From the NCBI RefSeq assembly GCF_004799685.1, contig NZ_CP031311.1, forward strand, positions 2,659,355 through 2,723,354: 64,000 bases of DNA, written 5' to 3'. The position numbers and the translations under genes are program-made. This document shows positions 14,201-49,609 of this stretch, piece by piece. How positions within the stretch are numbered: position 1 is the first letter of the stretch; each line of letters begins with the position of its first letter. The stretch comes from Halobellus limi. GTDB lineage: Archaea > Halobacteriota > Halobacteria > Halobacteriales > Haloferacaceae. A model generated the notes under the pieces. That model searched no databases, was not told the DNA's origin, and worked only from the letters and a program-made list of their open reading frames with translations.

Positions 14201-14965
14201 ATGGACGACGAGCGGGCGAGTCCGGTCAGAGAGACCTACGACCGGATCGCCGAGCACTTCGCGGCGACGCGTGAGTACCCCTGGCCAGAGGTGACGGCGT
14301 TTCTCGGCGGCGACCCCGCCGACGCTGACGACGGCGCTCCCGCGGACGTTCCCTCGGCCCTCGCTGGCGGGGCCGCATCGGCACTCGGCGGCGAACCGGA
14401 CACCGCAGACGGGCCGGCAGGCCGGTTCGGTCTCGACCTCGGGTGTGGCAACGGTCGCCACGCCGAGTCGCTCTCGGCGGTCGTCGGGCGCGTCGTCGGC
14501 GTCGACGTGAGCGCCGGACTCCTCCGGACGGCGGAGAGACGGTCGAGAGAGCGGGGCTTCGCCGACTCGCTCGAACTCGTCCGGGGCGACGCCGCGTCGC
14601 TGCCGCTTCGGGCGGACGCCGTCGACGTCGCCGTCTACGTCGCGACGCTGCATCACCTCCGGTCTCGGGAACGGCGAGTGGCCAGCCTCTCGGAACTGGC
14701 GCGCGTGCTCGCGCCCGGCGGTCGCGCCCTCGTGAGCGCCTGGTCGACCGCTCACGACCGCTTCGACGAGACGTCGGGCTTCGATACGACCGTCGCGTGG
14801 ACGCTGCCGGGCGGCGAGCGCGTCCCGCGGTTCTACCACATCTACGATCCCGACGAGTTCGAGGCGGACCTGGCGGCGAGCGACCTCGACGTGGTCGCGA
14901 ACACGGTCTCCAGCGGCAACTGCTACGCCGTCGTCACGCCCGATACGGCGGGGGCGAGTGACTGA
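14201..14965 (+). CDS. Class I SAM-dependent methyltransferase
   Basis: A 254-residue methyltransferase. Motif I is GLDLGCGNGRHAESL near residue 80, followed by VVGVDVSAGLLRTAERRS, RGDAASLPL and the post-core DVAVYVATLHHL. The N-terminal VRETYDRIAEHFAATREYPWPEV resembles AlkB homologue 8/Trm9-type methyltransferases, which act on the tRNA wobble uridine, so a tRNA-modifying role is possible but not shown. Residues 45-70 are a low-complexity insert. The ATG at 14201 directly precedes the conserved region. The TGA stop is embedded in a palindromic repeat element that starts at 14962. Confidence 0.85.
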   Translation: MDDERASPVRETYDRIAEHFAATREYPWPEVTAFLGGDPADADDGAPADVPSALAGGAASALGGEPDTADGPAGRFGLDLGCGNGRHAESLSAVVGRVVGVDVSAGLLRTAERRSRERGFADSLELVRGDAASLPLRADAVDVAVYVATLHHLRSRERRVASLSELARVLAPGGRALVSAWSTAHDRFDETSGFDTTVAWTLPGGERVPRFYHIYDPDEFEADLAASDLDVVANTVSSGNCYAVVTPDTAGASD

Positions 14966-15049
14966 TACTGATTACTCTCGTCTCTTCCCGCCGAGCACCG
15001 TCAGCGGAGGTGGCGCTCAGCGGGACAAGGTGGGGGCAATCGGTGTGAG
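14962..15049. repeat. 88-bp palindromic element, copy A
   Basis: This copy is in the opposite orientation to the other two (33381 and 49522). Read against the reverse complement of the 33381 copy it matches at about 72 of 88 positions without gaps. Its left end, CTGATACTGATTACTCTC (14962-14979), is identical to the gene-proximal ends of the other copies. The methyltransferase stop TGA is bases 2-4 of the element and another in-frame TGA lies at bases 8-10. The distal end is degenerate. Confidence 0.85.
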
Positions 15050-27239: not shown

Positions 27240-29284
27240 CCCACCACCATCCAGACGAACAGCGCGACCGTCTGCAGCACGACGACGAACTTCACTCCCG
27301 AGACGATGTCGGCGTCGCGGATGTAGCCGCTTATGAACCCCGACAGCGCCGCCTGCAGCGTCACGGCGTGGAAGAAGAGCACCGACAGCACGTCGGTATC
27401 GACGCCGCCGCCGAAGCTGAGTCCCTGCCCGGAGAGTTCGCTGCCGCCACCGCTCGCTTGCGACGACAGCCCGGCCATCACGTCGAGGAACTGCGTCTTG
27501 AGGATCGCCATCACGCCGAGCAGCGTCAGGTACGTCATCAGGATGATCGCCACCTGCATCCGCGTGCGGGACTTGCGTTCGCGCTCGATGTCGTCTTGGT
27601 TCTCGGAGGCCTGCGCCGCGGTCGTCAGCACCTCGGTGATCTGACTGGAGGCCTCCTGGGCCTTCGAGATGAGCTTGACCGTCCGCGCGAGCCGCGGGAT
27701 GTGGTACTTGTTGTTGAACTCCACGAGCGCGCTGCGGAGGCTCATCCCGTAGTTCACCTTCGCGTGCATCACCTCGAACTCCTCGGCGAGCTTTCCAGAG
27801 GAGGTCGACGCCACGGTCTCGACCGATTCTAAGAGCGTCTGCCCGGTGTCGTTCGCGCTGGAGAGCTTCCGGAGGTTATCCGAGAGCTTCCCGACCACCG
27901 CGTTCCGCGAGCGGACGTTCCAGGTGTGAAACGCCGCGAGCGGGACGCCGATGACGTACACCGGGACGTACCACCAGACGAACGTCCCCCAGACGGGGTT
28001 GTCGAGCATCCCCTGCCACGCGAGCGGCGCGGCGCCGTTGGCGACGGCGACGGCGAGCAGCGCGCCCGCGGCCGGAACCGTCAGCAGGAGCGAGTACATC
28101 GGGTGATCGCGGAAGAACAGGTGCGGCCGCCGAAGCAGTTGGCCCGTCTTGTAGGTCCCCTCCCGCGAGCGGATCCGCTCGAAGATGCGGAACTCGCCGA
28201 CGAAGCTCTCGATCAGGCCCATGTGGATCAGTCCCTCGCGGTTGACCTGCCGGAGCCGGTCGGAGCCGTTCGAGGGCTGGAGGTAGCCGTCGCCGGGTTC
28301 GTCCTGCTTGACCGTCGAGACGAGCACGAGGAAGGCCACGCCCGTCAGCGGCACCAGCCCGTAGACGGTCGCGTACAGGAGTTGCTGTTGGGCCTGCCCG
28401 AGCATACTCATGATGACGAGGATGATGATGAGAAGCAGCGGGAACAAAGACAGCGTCATGTACATCTCGCCGAACAGTTCGAGGGTTTCGAGGACCGTCT
28501 CCTGCTCCTGTTTCGCGGTCCGGAGGTGTTTCTCCTTCTTGTCGTCGAGGAACTGCTCCATATCGCCGCCGGAGTTGACGATCGAGAGCATGTCCGTCAG
28601 GAACTGCGAGAGTTCCTCGGAGGGCGTCGTCATCGCCTGATCGCGGATCGCGTTTCGGTAGTCCGTCCCGAAGTACTCCGTCTCTCGGACGATGCTCTGG
28701 AACTCCTTGGCCACCTCGCCGTAGGTGTCGTCGGCCCGTCCCATCGCCTCCAGGATCTCGAGCTGGTTCAGCCCGCCCACCGAGAGCGCGTACATGAACG
28801 AGATGGCGTCCGGAAGCAGCATGTTGATCTCGCGCTTCCGACCCGAGGCCTTCGAGTACGGGACGGCGACGAGGCTCCCGAACCCGACGCCGAACCCGAT
28901 CGCGCCGAAGACGACGCCCGAGACGAGCGTGACCGCCGGGACGGTGAGCGACTTCAGCGCCCTGGCCGTCTCGGCGTCCGGGGCGGGCAGGCCGATGCTG
29001 ACGGCCGCCGGCGAGACGAGGCCGAGTTCGAAGATCCCCCACGCGAGGAGCGACCCGACGAGCCAGAGGAGGCCCCCGGCGATGACGCCGATCGCGATCG
29101 CCCGCGAGAGGTACAGTTCCACCGTCGCCGGCATCCGCGCCTGTTCGAGTTTCGTCCCGACGTCGGCGACGAAGTCGCCGTCCTCGTCGAAGAGGAACTG
29201 AAAGACCGGATAGAACGCGTCGCCGAGCGCGTCCGTGCTCCGGTCGAGGCCCTCGCCGTCGGCCTCGCCGACGTCCAGGCTCAT
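27236..29284 (-). CDS. Type II secretion system F-family (TadC/PilC-like) membrane protein, second copy
   Basis: The 682-residue platform protein of the pilus operon. It has two T2SSF repeats, each with a cytoplasmic helical domain (LPDAISFMYALSVGGLNQLE and NAVVGKLSDNLRKLSSANDT) followed by membrane helices (LSLFPLLLIIILVIMSMLG, and IILMTYLTLLGVMAILKT). Extra helices precede the first repeat. It anchors the ATPase to the filament base in the membrane. It overlaps the ATPase gene by four bases and the next pilin-like gene by four. Clearly paralogous to the protein at 11827-14028 in architecture but not closely similar in sequence. Confidence 0.9.
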   Translation of the reverse strand: MSLDVGEADGEGLDRSTDALGDAFYPVFQFLFDEDGDFVADVGTKLEQARMPATVELYLSRAIAIGVIAGGLLWLVGSLLAWGIFELGLVSPAAVSIGLPAPDAETARALKSLTVPAVTLVSGVVFGAIGFGVGFGSLVAVPYSKASGRKREINMLLPDAISFMYALSVGGLNQLEILEAMGRADDTYGEVAKEFQSIVRETEYFGTDYRNAIRDQAMTTPSEELSQFLTDMLSIVNSGGDMEQFLDDKKEKHLRTAKQEQETVLETLELFGEMYMTLSLFPLLLIIILVIMSMLGQAQQQLLYATVYGLVPLTGVAFLVLVSTVKQDEPGDGYLQPSNGSDRLRQVNREGLIHMGLIESFVGEFRIFERIRSREGTYKTGQLLRRPHLFFRDHPMYSLLLTVPAAGALLAVAVANGAAPLAWQGMLDNPVWGTFVWWYVPVYVIGVPLAAFHTWNVRSRNAVVGKLSDNLRKLSSANDTGQTLLESVETVASTSSGKLAEEFEVMHAKVNYGMSLRSALVEFNNKYHIPRLARTVKLISKAQEASSQITEVLTTAAQASENQDDIERERKSRTRMQVAIILMTYLTLLGVMAILKTQFLDVMAGLSSQASGGGSELSGQGLSFGGGVDTDVLSVLFFHAVTLQAALSGFISGYIRDADIVSGVKFVVVLQTVALFVWMVVG

Positions 29285-32200
29285 CGCTCCGTCCCCGTCG
29301 GTCGATCGGAACCGTCGCTCTCGTCCTCCTCGACGTCCTCATCGTCGTCGATCCCCTCGACGTCGCCGAAGTCCCAGGCCTCGTCGGCGTCTGTATCGTC
29401 TGCGGCCTCGGCGTCCGAGGGGTCAGACTCGTCGGTGAAGTCGACGCCCTCGGACGGTTCGACCCCCTCATCGGGTCCGTCCTCGTCGACGCCGTCCACC
29501 GGCGAACCGACGCCCTCGCTACCGAAGCCTCGGCCTTCCTCTCCGCTCTCGAACGGGGGATCGGCGTCGCTCGCGGCCGCGTCGTCGCTCTCGGAGTCGC
29601 CTACGTCGCTCTCGAACGCGTCCGCTCCGCCCCCCTCGTGTTCCGCGTCGGCGGCGGTCTCCGGGTCGCCCCCGTTCGCGACGGCGTCGCCGGCGGGATC
29701 ACCGCTCTCTCCCGCCGTCGGGTCGCCGCCTCCCGACGGTTCAGCCTCGCCTGCTAGGCCGTCGTCGTCGGACGACTCGTCGTCCGCCGGTTCATCGTCC
29801 GCCGGTTCATCGTCCGCCGGTTCATCGTCCGCCGATTCGTCGTCCATCGATTCGTCATCCGCCGGTTCGTCGTCCATCGGCTCCGCGAGCAGGTCCTCGA
29901 TTCCGAGTTCCTCCTCGGAGCCCTCGGCGACGTCGTCGAGGCCATCGTCGGTTCCGGTGTCAGTCCCGGACGACGCGTCTCGCCGTTCCGACTCGCCACC
30001 GAGCGCTGGCGTGTCGGTGTCCTCGTCGAGCGCCGGTGTCTCTGTGCCGTCACCGAGCGATGGCGTCTCCGACCCGTCTCCGAGTTCCGGGGCCTCCGTC
30101 CGTTCTTCGAGGGCGTCGAGTTCGGGGTGCTCGCCGCCGGCGGCGGTGACGTCCGGCGCGGATTCGACGTCGAGGAGGGCGTCCGCGACGTCGACGTCCT
30201 CGAGGTCGCGGTACTCCGGCCACAACTCCTCCTCGGCGCGGTCGAGGATCTCCGCGCAGAGGTCGCGGACCTCCTCGCCGGCGCTGGGACGCGGGACCAT
30301 CTCCTCCTTCTCGGGGTCGACGTTGATCTGGACGGACTCCATCTCCCGGAGGTCCTCGAGGCTGCGTTCGAGGTCGTCGCGGGCCATCAGCGCGAGGATC
30401 GTCTCCTGGTCGTTGATGAACGCCTGCAGCGTCGCCGCGACCTGCGAGTAGGTGTTGAGCCCGCGGTCGATCAGGTACGCGAGCACGACGCGCCGTTTGA
30501 ACAGTTCCTCGTCGAGTTGCTCTCTGGACCACCCGCGGTCGAACCGGACGTCCTCGAGGGTGTTCGACGAGCCCATCTTCAGGAACTCGTCGCCCTCGGC
30601 CTGCCACTGGTAGACGTCCTGAACGTTGATCTCGTCGTTCTCGGCGTCGTAGTGGTTGATCTCGGTCAGGGACTTGTTCCGCCGGACCTTGTTGCCCTGC
30701 ACCCGCGTGGAGGTCTGCACCGAGACGAGATCCAAGGCGGTGAACATCGTCTTCGAGACGTTGATGGGGTCAGTCGTGAAGCGCTTGAGCACCTCGCCGA
30801 CGCTGTCGGCGTGGAACGTCGTGTACGTGGTGTGCCCCGTCGACATCACCTGAAAGAGGGTGCGGCCCTCCTCGCCGCGGATCTCGCCCATCACGATGTA
30901 GTCGGGGCGCTGTCTGAGCGCCGCTTCGAGCAGGTCGAACTCGTCGACGTCGCCGCGGTCGTCGTCGCTGAACGACGGTCGGGTGACGGAGGCGACCCAG
31001 TTGCGCTGGGGCAGCTCCACCTCGCGGGTGTCCTCGATCGAGACGATCTTCGAATTCGAGGGGATGAAGAGCGACACCGCGTTCAGCGAGGTCGTCTTTC
31101 CCGACGCCGTGCCGCCGGCGAAGATGAGGCTCTTGTCGTTCTCGATGCAGAGCCACAGGAAGGCCATCTCCTCTAGGGAGAACGTCTTCCAGTTCACGAG
31201 GTCGATCGGGGTGAAGGGGACGTCCTTGAACTGCCGGATCGTGTAGTTCGTCCCGTGGTCTGAGACCTCCCGGCCGAGGGTCAACTGCGCCCGCGACCCG
31301 TCCGGGAGGGTCGCGTCGACCTGCGGGCGGCGCTTCGAGATGCCCTTGCCCGACCGCTGGGCGAGTTTGACGACGAAGTCGTCGAGTTCCTCCTCGCCGT
31401 GGTAGACGTTGGAGATGATCTGCTCGTAGTCGGAGTGGTAGACGAACACCGGCGAGTTGTAGCCGTCGCAGGAGATGTCCTCGACGTTCACGTCGTGTTT
31501 GATTCCGTCGATCCGCTCGTAGCCGATGAAGTCCCGGCGGAGGACGTACAGCAGTTTCTCGACCTGGTAGTCGTTCAGTTCCGTCGGGTCCTCCGCCAGC
31601 ACCGCCGACTCCGGTCGCGCGGCGATGCCGTCGAGAGAGGGGTCCGGCTCCGTCGGTTCCGACGAGGCGAACAGGCCGTCGAGGCGGCCGCCGAGGGAGC
31701 CCTCCTTCAGTCCCAGCGATCGGGCCGCAGTCGCCAGCGAGCGCTTCGACGACGCCCCGGCCGTCGGTGATCCCCCGTCGCCGTCGCTCCCGCCGCCGAA
31801 GTCCAAGTCCAGATCGAACTGCGAGAGGAACCCGTCTTCGCTCGCGGCGTCGCCGTTCCGCGTCGCGAGGACCGAGAGTCCGGCCTCTCGCGGGTGCTCG
31901 GGGACCCGATAGAGGTTGTATCGTTCGAGCAACTCCAGCGACTGCTGTTCGATGACCCGGCGGCGCGTGTCGGGGGCGTCGCCGACGATAGTCTCGTCGT
32001 CGTACTTGATCGCCGTCCGGAGCTTTCCGGTCAGGAACTCCGCGAGGTCCGCCTCGATCCGGTTCTGATGCGGTTCGATCACGTAGTACTTCTTCTCGTT
32101 CTCCTTCGTCGAGTGGAAGATGATCACGAACGAGTGCGGTTCGTTGACCCAGTAGCGCTCGACCTCCCGGAAGTGGGTCTTCTTCTCCATCGGGACCGCC

Positions 32201-33159
32201 TTCTCGAGGTCGTAGCGGTTGACGACCGTGGTCGCCCCGCGCTCGTCGCTGAAGAAGGCGTCCTCGTCGAACTCGGGGTCGACGTCGACCGTCCGCTCGT
32301 CGACGATCTCGTCGAGTTCCTCGGCGCGCTGCCCGCCGCGGGCGAGCGCGTTTTCGATCGCGTCGGGATCGAAACCCAGCGCCTCGGCGGGGTCGAAGCG
32401 CTCGATCTCGCCCTCGGCGTCGCGCGGCCGCGACCCGTCCTCTTCGTAGTAGTACTCGCGCTTGTAGTGCTCCCACAGCCAGACGTCCTTGACGACGGGC
32501 GTCGTCTCGGGGTCGCAGAACGCCTCGAACTCCGCGGAGATCCGAACGGCCTCGGCGGCCGCGTCCGTCACCTCCTCGCCGACGTCGACCGGGTGGAACC
32601 CGAGGTACTCCTCGGGGTCGGCGCTCACCGCGTCCCAGTCCTCGCGGGTGGGCGTCGGAATCTCGACGCCGTCGTCCCAGCGCTCGCTCTCCGCGTCCGC
32701 GTCGTCGTCGTACTCGCGGGGGTCCAGGCCCCCGTAGAGCGTCTCGACGTCGCCGTCGGCGCCGTACTGGTCGAGGAAGTCCGCCCAGGTGTACTCGCCG
32801 ACGGCGACGCGCGGCTCGTCGGCCGCTTCGCGCCCGGCATCGCCGGGGGACACCGAAGCGGCCTCCTCGGGACCGTCCGTAGCCGCTCCGTCGGGAGCGT
32901 CGGGTCTGTCGGGGCTCTCCGGAGCGTCGGCTCCGTCCTCGACTGCGGACAGTTCGGTCGATCCCGCCTCCGGTCGATCCGCGTCGTCGGTCGGTCGGAG
33001 CCCCCCAGCCCCGTCGCCCGACGCCCCGTCCGAATCTCCGGCGGCCCGATCGACGGTGTCCCCCTCGGGAGCCGACGAGGATCCCTCCCCCTCGCCCTCC
33101 AACGCGTCGTCGCCGTCCCGGTCGGGATCGGCGCCCGACGCGTCGTCGTCGGTTGCCAT
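29281..33159 (-). CDS. Very large type II/IV secretion ATPase, second copy
   Basis: At 1292 residues this ATPase is roughly twice the usual PilB/TadA length. Residues 1-110 are acidic low complexity; about 110-560 is an N-terminal region containing YVIEPHQNRIEADLAEFL. The ATPase core follows, with Walker A GGTASGKTTS (K688), the Asp box SIEDTREVELPQR, Walker B YIVMGEIRGEEG and the His box STGHTTYTTFHADS. After about residue 1000 comes a long Asp/Glu/Ser-rich tail of some 280 residues that includes seven 15-bp repeats. It is the first gene of the pilus operon. The tails are probably disordered and solvent-exposed in the high-salt cytoplasm; function unknown. Confidence 0.88.
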   Translation of the reverse strand: MATDDDASGADPDRDGDDALEGEGEGSSSAPEGDTVDRAAGDSDGASGDGAGGLRPTDDADRPEAGSTELSAVEDGADAPESPDRPDAPDGAATDGPEEAASVSPGDAGREAADEPRVAVGEYTWADFLDQYGADGDVETLYGGLDPREYDDDADAESERWDDGVEIPTPTREDWDAVSADPEEYLGFHPVDVGEEVTDAAAEAVRISAEFEAFCDPETTPVVKDVWLWEHYKREYYYEEDGSRPRDAEGEIERFDPAEALGFDPDAIENALARGGQRAEELDEIVDERTVDVDPEFDEDAFFSDERGATTVVNRYDLEKAVPMEKKTHFREVERYWVNEPHSFVIIFHSTKENEKKYYVIEPHQNRIEADLAEFLTGKLRTAIKYDDETIVGDAPDTRRRVIEQQSLELLERYNLYRVPEHPREAGLSVLATRNGDAASEDGFLSQFDLDLDFGGGSDGDGGSPTAGASSKRSLATAARSLGLKEGSLGGRLDGLFASSEPTEPDPSLDGIAARPESAVLAEDPTELNDYQVEKLLYVLRRDFIGYERIDGIKHDVNVEDISCDGYNSPVFVYHSDYEQIISNVYHGEEELDDFVVKLAQRSGKGISKRRPQVDATLPDGSRAQLTLGREVSDHGTNYTIRQFKDVPFTPIDLVNWKTFSLEEMAFLWLCIENDKSLIFAGGTASGKTTSLNAVSLFIPSNSKIVSIEDTREVELPQRNWVASVTRPSFSDDDRGDVDEFDLLEAALRQRPDYIVMGEIRGEEGRTLFQVMSTGHTTYTTFHADSVGEVLKRFTTDPINVSKTMFTALDLVSVQTSTRVQGNKVRRNKSLTEINHYDAENDEINVQDVYQWQAEGDEFLKMGSSNTLEDVRFDRGWSREQLDEELFKRRVVLAYLIDRGLNTYSQVAATLQAFINDQETILALMARDDLERSLEDLREMESVQINVDPEKEEMVPRPSAGEEVRDLCAEILDRAEEELWPEYRDLEDVDVADALLDVESAPDVTAAGGEHPELDALEERTEAPELGDGSETPSLGDGTETPALDEDTDTPALGGESERRDASSGTDTGTDDGLDDVAEGSEEELGIEDLLAEPMDDEPADDESMDDESADDEPADDEPADDEPADDESSDDDGLAGEAEPSGGGDPTAGESGDPAGDAVANGGDPETAADAEHEGGGADAFESDVGDSESDDAAASDADPPFESGEEGRGFGSEGVGSPVDGVDEDGPDEGVEPSEGVDFTDESDPSDAEAADDTDADEAWDFGDVEGIDDDEDVEEDESDGSDRPTGTER
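29780..29884 (-). repeat. Seven 15-bp tandem repeats in the ATPase tail
   Basis: The unit TCGTCCGCCGGTTCA starts at 29780, 29795 and 29810 without change. Four more units with one to four substitutions follow, to 29884. They encode five-residue repeats of the type DDEPA in the acidic C-terminal extension. The near-identity of three units suggests recent slippage. Confidence 0.85.
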
Positions 33160-33464
33160 CGTTCTCGGGTCGGTGTCCCCACGGAAAAAGACTTCTCCCC
33201 GATTATCAGAGAAATTATTCCGAGAGCGGCCTGAAAAGATGTGCGCTGATTGTGACTTTCGGCCCCGGCGAGAACGGGTGTCGCGTCGGTAGACGGCCCG
33301 TATCGGACTATCTGACGCGCACCCGCGGAGCGGTCCGTCACGCCGAGACGGCGCGAGTCACACGTAGCCTCGTCGACGGATTCAGACTGATCGCTCTCAC
33401 TTTGTACCGCCGAGCGCCACCGCCGTTGCCGGCGCTCGACGGTGAGAGACGAGAGTAATCAGTA
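33160..33464. promoter_or_regulatory. Gene-free region carrying the pilus-operon promoter and a repeat element
   Basis: No protein gene is seen in these 305 bases. On the minus strand, the AT-rich stretch at about 33203-33226 (GAATAATTTCTCTGATAATC) lies 44-67 bases before the ATPase ATG and is the likely promoter zone. A closer T-run, CTTTTTCC at 33184-33191, may also contribute. The right-hand part from 33381 is the 88-bp palindromic element. Confidence 0.5.
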
Positions 33465-33468
33465 TCAG
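33381..33468. repeat. 88-bp palindromic element, copy B
   Basis: Same orientation as the copy at 49522 and about 71 of 88 positions identical to it without gaps. Its right end, the reverse complement of CTGATACTGATTACTCTC, is intact and overlaps the stop codon of the minus-strand gene at 33465. The left end keeps about 13 of those 18 bases. The middle holds an inner stem, CGAGCGCC and GGCGCTCG, separated by 12 bases. Confidence 0.88.
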
Positions 33469-33623
33469 AGGAGCATCGCGATGAAACCGTACGCCGCCCC
33501 GAGGAGGAGCATCGCGGCGAGGAGGATGGCGAACCACGTTCGACCGTTCGCCGGGACGTCGGGGATCTCCGACGGGTAGTACGGCGAGAGCGGATTGTTG
33601 GGTTCCTCGTCGCTCCGGGCCAT
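33465..33623 (-). CDS. Small single-helix membrane protein
   Basis: A 52-residue protein: a hydrophilic, proline-rich N-terminal half (MARSDEEPNNPLSPYYPSEI) and one hydrophobic helix at about 33-51 (FAILLAAMLLLGAAYGFIAM). I do not recognise the family. The ATG at 33623 has a plausible AT-rich promoter patch about 15-35 bases upstream. Its stop codon lies inside the palindromic repeat, and it is divergent from the coiled-coil gene. Coding status rests on composition, promoter and the clean helix, so confidence is moderate. Confidence 0.6.
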   Translation of the reverse strand: MARSDEEPNNPLSPYYPSEIPDVPANGRTWFAILLAAMLLLGAAYGFIAMLL

Positions 33624-33721
33624 CGTCGAGGAGTTTCGTCTGTCAGTCAATTCAACGTTTCCCCGCCGCGGATTCGGGTCGGCGCATCGGTATCGCTATC
33701 ACGAACGGTATTTTGCCCGGG

Positions 33722-44934: not shown

Positions 44935-47900
44935 ATGCACATCAAAGAGCTCGTCCTCGACGGTTTCAAAAGCTTCGGGCGGACCACGCGAATCCCGTTC
45001 TACGAGGACTTCACGGTCGTCACGGGGCCGAACGGCTCCGGGAAGTCGAACATCATCGACGGCGTGCTGTTCGCGCTCGGACTGGCCCGAACGCGCGGCA
45101 TCCGCGCCGAGAAACTCACGGATCTGATCTACAACCCGGGCCACGCCGACGGGAGCGACGACGGCGAGAGCGAAGCGAGCGGCCCCAAGGAGGCGACGGT
45201 CACCGTCGTCCTCGACAACGGCGACGGGACGCTCGACCGCGCGCAGGTCGTCAACGCCGCCGGCAGCGACAACGTCGGCGACGTCGACGAGATCCGGGTC
45301 AAGCGCCGGGTCAAGGAGACCGAGGACAACTACTACTCCTACTACTACCTCAACGGCCGCGCTTGCAACCTCTCCGACATCCAGGACCTCCTCGCGCAGG
45401 CGGGCATCACCCCCGAGGGCTACAACGTCGTGATGCAGGGCGACGTCACCGAGATCATCAACATGACCGCCTACCAGCGGCGGGGCATCATCGACGAGAT
45501 CGCCGGCGTCGCCGAGTTCGACGCGAAGAAGGAGGACGCCTTCGAGGAACTCGACGCCGTCGAGGCTCGCATCGAGGAGGCCGACCTCCGGATCGAGGAG
45601 AAGGAGGATCGGCTGGCGCAACTCGAAGACGAGCGCGAGACCGCTCTGGAGTACCAGTCGCTCCGCGAGGAGCGCGAGGAGTACGAGGGCTACCAGAAGG
45701 CCGCCGAGCTCGAAGACAAGCGCGAGGACCTCGAATCGACCGAGAAACGGGTCGAGAAGAAGGAGTCGACGCTCGCCGAGCACCGGGAGGAACTCGACCG
45801 CCGCGAGGGTCGGGTCACACGCCTGGAGGACGAACTCGACGAGCTGACGAAGGAGATCGAGCGGAAGGGCGAGGACGAACAGCTCCGGATCAAATCCGAG
45901 ATCGAGGAGGTCAAAGGCGAGATCGACAGGTTGGAGAACGCGATCGAGGCGGCCGAAGAGCGGATCGAGGACGCCGAGAGCGAGCGGCGGAACGCGTTCG
46001 TCCAGCTCGACCGGAAGCAGGAGGAGATCGACGACCTCGACGAGGAGATCCGCTCGGTCAAAGTCGAGAAGGCCTCCGTGAAGTCCGACGTCGGCTCGCT
46101 CGAGACCGACCTCGCGGAGGTGCAGGCCGAGATCGACGACGTCGACACCGAGTACGACGAGCTGAAGGCCGAACTGAGCGAGAAGAAGGAGCGCCTCGAG
46201 GAGCTGAAGACCGAGAAGAACGAGCACCAGCGCGAGAAGGACCGGCTGCTCGACGAGACGCGCCGGCGCGCCACCGAGATCTCCGAGGCCGAAGACGAGA
46301 TCGAGGAGCTGCGAGAGACGATTCCCGACCTGAAGGCCGAGGTCTCGGACCTCCACTCGGAACTCGACAAGGCCGAGAAGAACGAGTCGAAGATCGAGGG
46401 GATCGTCGAGGAACTGCGGGAGGAGAAGGCCGAACTCAAAGAGGAACTCGACGAGGTCGTCGAGGAGATCCAATCGAAGCAATCGGAGTACGCCACCTTA
46501 GAGGCCAGGGCGGGCGACGACGGCGACAACTCCTGGCCGCGGGCGGTCACGACGATCCAGAACGCCGGGCTCTCCGGGGTCCACGGAACCGTGGGCGAAC
46601 TGGGAGCGGTCGACGGCGAGTACGCCAGCGCCTGCGAGACCGCCGCCGGCGGCCGGCTCGCGCACGTCGTCGTCGACGACGACGGCGTCGGCTCCGACTG
46701 CATCGACTACCTGAAGTCCCGGAACGCCGGGCGGGCGACGTTCCTCCCGATCACGAAGATGGAGGACCGCGGCCTCCCGCGACTGCCCGACCACCCCGGC
46801 GTCGTCGACTTCGCGCGCAACCTCGTCGACTACGACGCCGAGTACGAATCGGTCTTCTCGTACGTGCTGGGCTCGACGCTGGTCGTCGAGGACATGGAGA
46901 CCGCCCGCGACCTGATGGGCGACTACCGGATGGTGACGCTCGACGGCGACTTAGTCGAGCGCTCCGGCGCGATGACCGGCGGCTCCGGCGGCGGCTCGCG
47001 GTACTCCTTCTCGAAGTCCGGCGGCGGTCGGCTCGAACGGCTCGCCGAGGAGATCGAGGAGTTGGAGGACCGACGCCGGAGCCTCCAGGCGGAGGTCAGA
47101 GAGAAAGAAGAGGACATCGAGGACGCCCGGAGCCGCGCCTCCGACGCCCGCGATCGGGTCCGCTCGCTCGAATCTGACGTCGAGGACGCCGAATCGGACG
47201 TCGAAGACGCCGAGGGCGAGATCGAGGAACTCGAAGCCGAGATCGAGCGGCTCCGCGAGGAGCGAGCGGAGGTCGACGAGGAGATGCGGGAGATCGACGC
47301 CGAGATCGACGAGATCGACGAGGAGATTTCCGACGTGCAGGCGGAGATCGACGACCTCGAATCGGAACTGGCCGACTCGAAGATCCCCGAACTGACCGCC
47401 GAGGCCGAGGAGATCGAGGCCGAGATCGACGAGAAGGAAGAGCGGATGGACGACCTCGACGGACGGCTCAACGAGCTCCAGCTCCAGCGGCAGTACGCCG
47501 AGGAGACGATCGAGGACCTCGAGGAGACCGTCGAGAGCGCCCAGGAGAAGAAGGCCGACGCCCGCGACGTCATCAGGCAGAAGGAGGCCGAGATCGAAGA
47601 GCGCGAGGCGGAACTCGAAGCCAAGCGCGAGGCCGTCGAGGAACTCGAAGAGGAGCTGAAAGAACTGAAGTCCGAGCGGTCGGACCTGCAGGCGACGCTG
47701 CGGGAGGCCAAGAGCGAGCGCGACGAGAAGCGCGACGAGGTCGATCGGATCGAATCGAAACTGGAGTCGCTGCGCGACAGCGTCGAGCGGCTCTCCTGGG
47801 AGATCGACGAGCTCGAATCGGAGGTCGGCGAGTACGACCCCGAGGCGATCCCCGACCACGACGAGGTCGAAGCCGAGATCGACCGGCTCACAGAAGAGAT

Positions 47901-48537
47901 GGAGGCGCTCGAACCGGTGAACATGCTCGCGATCGACGAGTACGACGAGGTGAACGCGGAACTGGAGGACCTGAAGGAGCGCCGCGACGTCCTCGTCGAG
48001 GAGCGCGAGGCCATCGAGGAACGGATCGACCGCTTCGAGGCCCAAAAGAAGGAGACGTTCATGGACGCCTTCGACGCGATCAACGAGAACTTCACCGAGA
48101 TCTTCGAGCGGCTCTCCGACGGCACGGGCGAACTCCACCTCGAGAACCCCGAGGACCCCTTCGAGGAGGGACTGACGATGAAGGCCCAGCCCGGCGACAA
48201 GCCGATCCAGCGGCTGAACGCGATGTCCGGCGGCGAGAAGTCGCTCACGGCGCTGGCGTTCATCTTCGCGATCCAGCGGCACAACCCCGCGCCGTTCTAC
48301 GCGCTCGACGAGATCGACGCGTTCCTCGACGCCGCCAACGCCGAGCGCGTCGGCGAGATGGTCGACGACCTCTCGGGGGACGCCCAGTTCGTCGTCGTCT
48401 CGCACCGCTCGGCGCTCTTAGAGCGCTCCGAGCGCGCCATCGGCGTGACGATGCAGGGCGACAACGTCAGCGCCGTCACCGGCATCCAGTTGGGCGACGA
48501 CGAGAGCGAGGAGGCGGAGGTGCCCGCGGATGACTGA
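44935..48537 (+). CDS. smc: Chromosome segregation protein SMC
   Basis: A complete 1200-residue SMC ATPase. The Walker A motif GPNGSGKSN is at residues 31-39 after MHIKELVLDGFKSFG. Two long acidic coiled coils flank the hinge at about 525-650 (GVHGTVGELGAVDGEYASAC, TFLPITKM and the end GGSGGGSRYSF). The C-terminal head has the ABC signature NAMSGGEKSLTALAF and Walker B PFYALDEIDAFLD. SMC dimers entrap DNA and organise the chromosome. The gene overlaps scpA by eight bases, so SMC and its kleisin are co-translated. No ScpB gene follows. Confidence 0.96.
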   Translation: MHIKELVLDGFKSFGRTTRIPFYEDFTVVTGPNGSGKSNIIDGVLFALGLARTRGIRAEKLTDLIYNPGHADGSDDGESEASGPKEATVTVVLDNGDGTLDRAQVVNAAGSDNVGDVDEIRVKRRVKETEDNYYSYYYLNGRACNLSDIQDLLAQAGITPEGYNVVMQGDVTEIINMTAYQRRGIIDEIAGVAEFDAKKEDAFEELDAVEARIEEADLRIEEKEDRLAQLEDERETALEYQSLREEREEYEGYQKAAELEDKREDLESTEKRVEKKESTLAEHREELDRREGRVTRLEDELDELTKEIERKGEDEQLRIKSEIEEVKGEIDRLENAIEAAEERIEDAESERRNAFVQLDRKQEEIDDLDEEIRSVKVEKASVKSDVGSLETDLAEVQAEIDDVDTEYDELKAELSEKKERLEELKTEKNEHQREKDRLLDETRRRATEISEAEDEIEELRETIPDLKAEVSDLHSELDKAEKNESKIEGIVEELREEKAELKEELDEVVEEIQSKQSEYATLEARAGDDGDNSWPRAVTTIQNAGLSGVHGTVGELGAVDGEYASACETAAGGRLAHVVVDDDGVGSDCIDYLKSRNAGRATFLPITKMEDRGLPRLPDHPGVVDFARNLVDYDAEYESVFSYVLGSTLVVEDMETARDLMGDYRMVTLDGDLVERSGAMTGGSGGGSRYSFSKSGGGRLERLAEEIEELEDRRRSLQAEVREKEEDIEDARSRASDARDRVRSLESDVEDAESDVEDAEGEIEELEAEIERLREERAEVDEEMREIDAEIDEIDEEISDVQAEIDDLESELADSKIPELTAEAEEIEAEIDEKEERMDDLDGRLNELQLQRQYAEETIEDLEETVESAQEKKADARDVIRQKEAEIEEREAELEAKREAVEELEEELKELKSERSDLQATLREAKSERDEKRDEVDRIESKLESLRDSVERLSWEIDELESEVGEYDPEAIPDHDEVEAEIDRLTEEMEALEPVNMLAIDEYDEVNAELEDLKERRDVLVEEREAIEERIDRFEAQKKETFMDAFDAINENFTEIFERLSDGTGELHLENPEDPFEEGLTMKAQPGDKPIQRLNAMSGGEKSLTALAFIFAIQRHNPAPFYALDEIDAFLDAANAERVGEMVDDLSGDAQFVVVSHRSALLERSERAIGVTMQGDNVSAVTGIQLGDDESEEAEVPADD

Positions 48538-49525
48538 CTCCGCCGGGTCGCCGCCGCGGAGCGAGGTGTTCCCCGACGGCGTCGACGTCGGCGACGACGA
48601 CCGCTCGGGGGGACGCAGCGGGACGGGCGGCTCCGGCGGCGGTCCGCCCGGTGCCGACCGAACGGACGTCGACGATGACGAAGTCGAACCCGTCGAGCTC
48701 CTCGTCCAGTTGGCCGAGGAGGGCGAGATCGACCCCTGGGACGTCGACCTCGTCGAGGCCACTGACGCCTTCCTCGACGCGCTCGACGAGACGGACCTCC
48801 GCACCTCCGGGCGGGCGCTGTTCTACGCGGCCGTCCTCCTGCGGATGAAGAGCGACGCGCTGTTAGAACCCGACGAGGAGGAGGAAGCGGAGCCGGAGCC
48901 GTGGGAGGCCGCCCTCGAAGGCGGCGGTCCGATCGCCGAGGGCGGGGCCGACGACGGGAGTGCCGGGCCGGGTTTCGATCCGATCGACACGCTCGAAGCC
49001 GAGATGGACCGGCGACTCGAACGCAAGGACGCCCGGGGGTCGCCGGAGACGCTCGACGAACTCGTCCGGGAGCTCCGGGAGGCCGAGCGACAGTCGTGGT
49101 GGAAGCGCCGCCGCGAGTACGACACCTCCGACTCGCCGCACGGGCACAGTCGCGGGACGCAGACGCTGGATTACCGCTCGGCCGACGAGTTCCGCGAGGC
49201 GGACGAACCGACCGCGGCGGACGTGACCGGCACGGCCCACACCGAGGACATCGAGACGTCGATCGCGGCCGTCCGCGACGCGGTCGACGTCCACTACGAC
49301 AACGGCCGCGACGAGGTGCTGTTCGCCGAGGTCGCGGACGCCGCCGAGACGCCGGTGACGACGTACCTCGCGCTCCTGTTCCTCTCACACCGGAGCGAGG
49401 TGCGACTACAGCAGGACGACCTCTTCGGCGACCTCTGGATCCGGAACCCCGACGCGACGTTCGACGAGAGAGAATCCGACGTCGAGTCCGAGGAGGCGAT
49501 GATCCCCGCCGCCGACGACGACTGA
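48530..49525 (+). CDS. scpA: Kleisin ScpA (segregation and condensation protein A)
   Basis: A 331-residue kleisin. It has EPVELLVQLAEEGEIDPWDV near residue 50, the first SMC-binding helical region, LFYAAVLLRMKSDALLEPDE near 100, and a C-terminal winged-helix-like part (VTTYLALLFLSHRSEVRLQQ) near 280. The middle is acidic and less conserved. It bridges the heads of SMC. The ATG overlaps the smc stop by eight bases. Residues 1-45 are a Gly/Asp-rich extension absent from bacterial ScpA. The stop codon TGA at 49523-49525 is contained in the palindromic repeat copy C. Confidence 0.92.
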   Translation: MTDSAGSPPRSEVFPDGVDVGDDDRSGGRSGTGGSGGGPPGADRTDVDDDEVEPVELLVQLAEEGEIDPWDVDLVEATDAFLDALDETDLRTSGRALFYAAVLLRMKSDALLEPDEEEEAEPEPWEAALEGGGPIAEGGADDGSAGPGFDPIDTLEAEMDRRLERKDARGSPETLDELVRELREAERQSWWKRRREYDTSDSPHGHSRGTQTLDYRSADEFREADEPTAADVTGTAHTEDIETSIAAVRDAVDVHYDNGRDEVLFAEVADAAETPVTTYLALLFLSHRSEVRLQQDDLFGDLWIRNPDATFDERESDVESEEAMIPAADDD

Positions 49526-49609
49526 TACTGATTACTCTCACTTTGTGCCACCGGGCGCCACCCCCGTCGCCGGCGCTCGACGAAAAGAGACGAGAGTACT
49601 CAGTACGTG
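49522..49609. repeat. 88-bp palindromic element, copy C
   Basis: The left end CTGATACTGATTACTCTC (49522-49539) is intact and overlaps the scpA stop codon. The right end is degenerate. Overall it is about 81% identical, without gaps, to the copy at 33381. It lies between convergent genes (scpA and the MTA phosphorylase), where a bidirectional terminator would be useful. Confidence 0.88.

Follow-up and report, generated by a model that had tools for sequence, protein, structure and literature searches.

REP and BIME sequences are palindromic, extragenic repeats that often lie near stop codons, are not known to carry a target-site duplication (TSD) and are moved by Y1 enzymes. Transposable elements of the IS1031 group of the IS5 family generate 3-bp duplications of the form TNA, and a 3-bp duplication is generally taken to mean that the enzyme cuts the two strands 3 bases apart. 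REP units are 20-40 bp long (PMC3733652). Prokaryotic MITEs are short and non-coding, end in terminal inverted repeats (TIRs), are flanked by a TSD and occur as many precisely inserted copies with a patchy distribution (PMC10969869); the term 'stop codon' does not appear in that review. The closest described elements in the haloarchaea are the SMRs of Haloquadratum (SMR-A, about 110 bp; HqIRS41, 80 bp), which are transposase-free, have no known related transposon, and were reported without target duplications and as inserting into other mobile elements, the PATE/IS605 palindromes (PMC3119063). The NuwaII group of eukaryotic transposon families, part of the IS5-related PHIS superfamily, has the target C-TNA-G and a TSD of likely 3 bp (PMC4482050). 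Our literature search found no paper on the family described below or on a stop-concentrated MITE, although subscription journals were thinly covered and this is therefore weak evidence.

The repeats described here were found in a 64,000-nucleotide stretch of the Halobellus limi genome (hereafter the window; its genome is designated G000). We put at about 0.88 the probability that they are a MITE-like element, an 80-bp non-coding hairpin that is moved in trans, inserts at C-TSA-G and leaves stop codons intact, with differential survival and an IS5-related mobiliser as the probable causes of its distribution and movement. Every MITE feature tested is present apart from an identified parent: the element is <500 bp, non-coding, multi-copy and of fixed length, has TIRs and a TSD, and gives evidence of mobility. 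It differs from other prokaryotic MITEs in forming one near-perfect hairpin, in its C-TSA-G target and in lying mostly on stop codons, and no parent transposon was found in Halobellus or around the solo ends sampled elsewhere. With the SMRs it shares a haloarchaeal host, a similar size, prominent inverted repeats and the lack of a known transposase, whereas the duplication of TSA and the position at gene ends set it apart from the SMRs as described. The three window copies, their duplications and the genes on which they lie are as follows.

14201-14965, plus strand: methyltransferase gene (Methyltransf_11), host of copy 1
14962-15049, minus strand: MITE copy 1 (covariance-model match 84.3 bits)
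14963-14965 and 15046-15048: TSDs of copy 1, both TGA; 80-bp core at 14966-15045
14963-14965, plus strand: TSD of copy 1, TGA, serving the methyltransferase gene as stop codon
33381-33468, plus strand: MITE copy 2 together with the target bases on either side (covariance-model match 95.5 bits)
33382-33384 and 33465-33467: TSDs of copy 2, both TCA; 80-bp core at 33385-33464
33465-33467, minus strand: TSD of copy 2 as the in-frame TGA stop of a small ORF
33465-33650, minus strand: hypothetical ORF of 61 aa ending in the TSD, host of copy 2 (gene score only 16)
48566-49525, plus strand: ScpA-like gene with an SMC_ScpA domain, host of copy 3, adjoining a large gene at 44935-48537
49522-49609, plus strand: MITE copy 3 (covariance-model match 84.5 bits)
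49523-49525: TSD of copy 3, TGA; core at 49526-49605; distal TSD decayed to CGT at 49606-49608
49523-49525, plus strand: TSD of copy 3, serving the scpA-like gene as stop codon

The sequence-only reading of the window had placed three 88-bp elements at these positions with the first one inverted, and all of this was borne out. Its ungapped identity of about 81% describes two of the pairs well (72/88 and 71/88, or 82% and 81%) but overstates the third (65/88, 74%); the top unrelated 88-mer within the window reaches just 42/88 matches. The same reading was correct that none of the elements encodes a protein, but in 3/3 window copies the outer three bases serve as the TGA stop of a neighbouring gene. 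Among these three genes the ORF at 33465-33650 is the one most weakly supported by the gene finder, and it has no Pfam match. At 29281-33159 the window also encodes a protein of 1292 aa, in which a T2SSE/PilB3-like ATPase domain is combined with long tails that are acidic and repetitive.

The consensus of the family is C-TSA-TACTGATTACTCTC-ACTTTGTACCGCCGAGCGCCACCCCCGTTGCCGGCGCTCGGCGGGAAGAGAC-GAGAGTAATCAGTA-TSA-G, in which the 14-bp ends TACTGATTACTCTC / GAGAGTAATCAGTA are the TIRs; the end sequence for comparison with transposase ends is TANTGWTTACTCTC. Each window copy has the terminal repeat proposed earlier, CTGATACTGATTACTCTC, in exact form at one of its ends and in degenerate form at the opposite end. 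Over most of positions 1-38, base i of the consensus is paired with base 89-i; a few positions are weaker, and a conserved AC/AC mismatch interrupts the hairpin at 19-20/69-70. The inner stem that had been noted at the centre does exist and runs on from the outer stem without a break. The idea that the ends are inverted repeats throughout fails at bases 2-4 and 85-87, which form a 3-bp direct repeat, TSA, inside the target C-TSA-G. Across four genomes, bases 3 and 86 were identical in 114/125 copies (C/C in 57, G/G in 57) and complementary in only 7/125, and the two positions were complementary in 4% of the alignment. Since the TSA triplets are the target duplication, the mobile unit is 80 bp. 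In a genus-wide TIR search nearly every paired end showed a TSA-type repeat, with one TAA/TAA case, a 3-bp TNA duplication of the IS5/IS1031 type. The covariance model with which copies were detected combined 28 of them with a full hairpin written by hand; the consensus structure from RNAalifold folded poorly and was set aside. In two copies (L022:1501-1587 and L027:1500-1587) the outer arms are reversed with respect to the loop (left side, GCTCGTCTC / CTCTCGTCTC), which looks like an exchange of arms or an inversion of the core, and a third copy (L084:2501-2588, corresponding to G000:C2:249557-249644) is half an element in which the other arm is unrelated sequence.

This anatomy also bears on the REP alternative that had been offered for the repeats. 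A REP/RAYT-type element with a Y1 (TnpA-REP) transposase as its mobiliser would likewise be palindromic, extragenic and multi-copy, with an asymmetric mismatch in its hairpin, but the 3-bp TSD, the full TIRs and the 80-bp unit contradict this origin, and the GTAG/CGTC tag of REP/RAYT elements is absent from the consensus ends; we consider it very improbable. The data support a MITE-like transposable element, not a REP.

The expectation that the family would be abundant genome-wide was confirmed. The covariance model located about 65 distinct places in G000, and a BLAST search of the same genome likewise returned dozens. As expected of a palindrome, nearly all covariance-model places were matched on the two strands alike. 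Copy lengths clustered at 87-88 bp and almost all fell within 84-89 bp. The 88-bp element is present in 10/17 Halobellus genomes and absent from 7, with scattered single copies in other genera; exact 20-mers of it were found in H. inordinatus, H. rarus and H. clavatus, and it is also carried on a plasmid of Halobellus sp. DFY28. No element was found in phage records or on viral contigs, where two AT-rich contigs matched one 18-mer only. The DFY28 plasmid (NZ_CP134947.1) contains a large segmental duplication (approximately 1-50 kb and 180-230 kb; L233, L236-L237) that includes two pairs of MITE copies.

Mobility is evident from identical copies with unrelated flanks, the 3-bp TSD, filled and empty sites and the patchy distribution, all of which bear out the suggestion of a non-autonomous mobile element. 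In H. inordinatus (G087), four copies are 100% identical over exactly 88 bp and lie in unrelated flanks, and they belong to a recent burst of approximately 25 near-identical copies with a median pairwise identity of 94%, compared with 73% in the window's genome. Duplication at empty orthologous sites had been named as a check and was found: one orthologous stop codon reads CTGAG without an insertion in G000, G085 and G092 and is filled, as C-TGA-[80 bp]-TGA-G, by a young copy in G087 and by a copy in G089, while in G088 the filled site has a TGAA end. The variants at this stop differ between G087, G088 and G089 (L238, L239 and L240, versus L241 for the empty site). G000 is empty there even though sequence identities apparently place it closer to G088 and G089, an arrangement that fits either repeated insertion or inheritance with loss. 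For the scpA-like stop that is filled in the window, the orthologues in G085, G089 and G096 share the end ...GACGACGACTGA and lack the element. Orthologues of the gene beside the copy at 14962 also lack it, although their ends are too variable for the exact target to be read.

These comparisons leave virtually no credence for a regulatory palindrome inherited vertically within the genus. Its presence in 10/17 genomes is what such descent could produce, but the empty orthologous sites refute it, as do the identical young copies, the species-specific variants and the absence from 7 congeners. Conservation of sites across genera, which had been named as the finding that would tell against mobility, was not seen; the sites vary by species, the exception being the one stop filled in three congeners.

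The position of the copies relative to genes was determined with a codon-usage gene finder built for this analysis and trained on carrier DNA. In 90/125 copies (72%) from four genomes (G000, 42/64; G087, 20/26; G090, 21/24; G086, 7/11), a neighbouring gene used the TGA of the TSD as its in-frame stop, 40 of those in G000 having strong gene scores; by the same calls the remaining copies were intergenic, and 0/125 copies interrupted a gene. As a control, 244 other CTSAG sites were taken from the same DNA, and 145 of these were genic, 73 intergenic and 26 at stops. When stops were compared with other non-genic CTSAG sites in G000, the element was commoner at stops (odds ratio (OR) 5.4, p=6e-7), less strongly so when only convergent regions were considered (OR 3.9, p=0.02). 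The OR was about 15 in both G087 and G090 (p<1e-5 each); enrichment in G086 was not significant (7/11; ratio 2.9, p=0.17). On the PGAP-annotated DFY28 plasmid, for which the gene calls are independent, only 1/6 independent copies lay at a stop codon.

Of the genes in G000 that run into an element, 42/43 do so in a single frame, the one that stops in the TSD. The TGAs at the element edges are native stops, since the TSD copies the target and an in-frame TGA must therefore pre-exist, and the empty orthologous sites agree with this. Gene truncation as the source of the overlap was rejected on the same ground and because orthologues end there. The distal TSD has often decayed while the TSD that serves as the stop is intact, as expected if selection acts only on the stop copy.

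In the mechanism that we favour, an 80-bp near-perfect hairpin without coding capacity would be mobilised by a transposase acting in trans. That its insertion into the palindromic C-TSA-G duplicates TSA is shown by the 125 copies and the empty sites. Two triplets fit TSA, and since one of them is TGA, insertion at a gene end of the form ...C TGA G leaves ...C TGA at the edge of the element, with the stop kept and the protein unchanged. The concentration at stops would then arise mainly by survival, with copies in coding or promoter sequence being purged and those at stop codons being neutral; survival is the most likely cause. It is possible, but on balance unlikely, that gene 3' ends are instead actively sought by the transposition complex, which might recognise a longer motif, respond to the termination of transcription or use some other property of 3' ends, and that the enrichment arises at insertion and not through later purging. 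The 5- to 15-fold enrichment over other non-genic CTSAG sites points in this direction, and so do the young copies of G087, of which 17/22 (including 4/4 of the identical ones) are at stops, as well as the stop filled by different variants in three species and empty in G000. Only 2/6 young copies of G086 are at stops, however, apart from CTSAG the flanks contain only such patterns as codon periodicity would account for, and selection against promoter insertions could yield the same pattern as active seeking.

Function might also hold the copies in place. A hairpin directly after a stop could act as a terminator or mRNA stabiliser and be kept for that purpose, and the elements do lie directly after stops and form a stable hairpin; REPs near stop codons in E. 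coli have been reported to affect translation (PMC12306157). Domestication of this kind is nevertheless improbable here, as there are no compensatory changes (89.0% of cells paired versus 88.8% in shuffles), stop and non-stop copies have decayed alike (57.7 versus 58.0), the orientation relative to the gene shows no clear bias (24 versus 18) and the same stops occur without the element in relatives. No Rfam family matches the elements. A conserved RNA structure was rejected as there was no covariation between the arms, which indicates that copies decay as neutral DNA.

The family is a clear example of a mobile element that does almost no damage on insertion, as its target rule leads it to duplicate a triplet that is itself a stop codon. 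It suggests, in a form open to test, how elements with many copies can last in genomes that are dense with genes, and it would account for the position of such repeats beside gene ends with no need for a regulatory role.

An IS5-related DDE transposase is the most likely mobiliser, by analogy, because the C-TNA-G rule and the 3-bp duplication match those of NuwaII, and IS1031-type elements also duplicate TNA. The likeness to NuwaII lies in the target rule alone; the IS5/IS1031 elements share the TNA duplication, and no member with the ends of the 88-bp element was found among the loci sampled. A transposase with matching ends had been suggested as a further check, and none was found in the 17 Halobellus genomes, at the transposase loci sampled or at the TIR loci sampled elsewhere. 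A TIR pattern search of the 17 genomes returned no autonomous element, and the solo TIR ends in them were mostly decayed MITEs with no autonomous partner. None of 30 sampled PF01609 (DDE_Tnp_1) loci had such ends, and PF13586 (DDE_Tnp_1_2) transposases were not detected in the genus. The IS5 element of DFY28 was rejected as a partner because its ends differ. At 40 loci around TIR matches in other genera there was likewise no autonomous element, most of them being 116-bp or 88-bp elements or decayed copies; one solo end (L347), which adjoins sequence resembling an IS605-type end, was taken as a chance match. The motif C-TSA-TANTGWTTAC provides a precise signature with which the transposase can be traced in haloarchaea.

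When a looser TIR pattern was applied over the archaeal family, the same ends were recovered in other genera. A second hairpin family, of 116 bp, was found in Halorubrum (named match, H. salinarum) and other genomes (loci L328-L345 and L308-L318, in other Haloferacaceae genomes; for example L337:601-716). Its ends (CTNATAGTGATTACT) are those of the 88-bp element, and it likewise duplicates TSA, with a concordant TSD in 24/27 copies. Stop-codon placement was seen in 9/18 callable copies, a count that leaves out 9 copies at loci of genome G098, and this second family on stops is again in keeping with active seeking. Another genome, G071, carries an 88-bp variant with the same ends. The interiors of the families that share these TIRs are mostly unrelated in sequence, and the pattern suggests that one class of enzyme serves several non-autonomous families. 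More speculatively, and we regard it as doubtful, the 88-bp and 116-bp hairpins, as two or more families, could belong to a multi-genus haloarchaeal system in which candidate machinery is specialised for stop codons and TGA is regenerated via TSA, a safe-harbour strategy. The genome with the most exact TIR ends is G161 (genus g23), which has 43+43 of them, more than any other genome.
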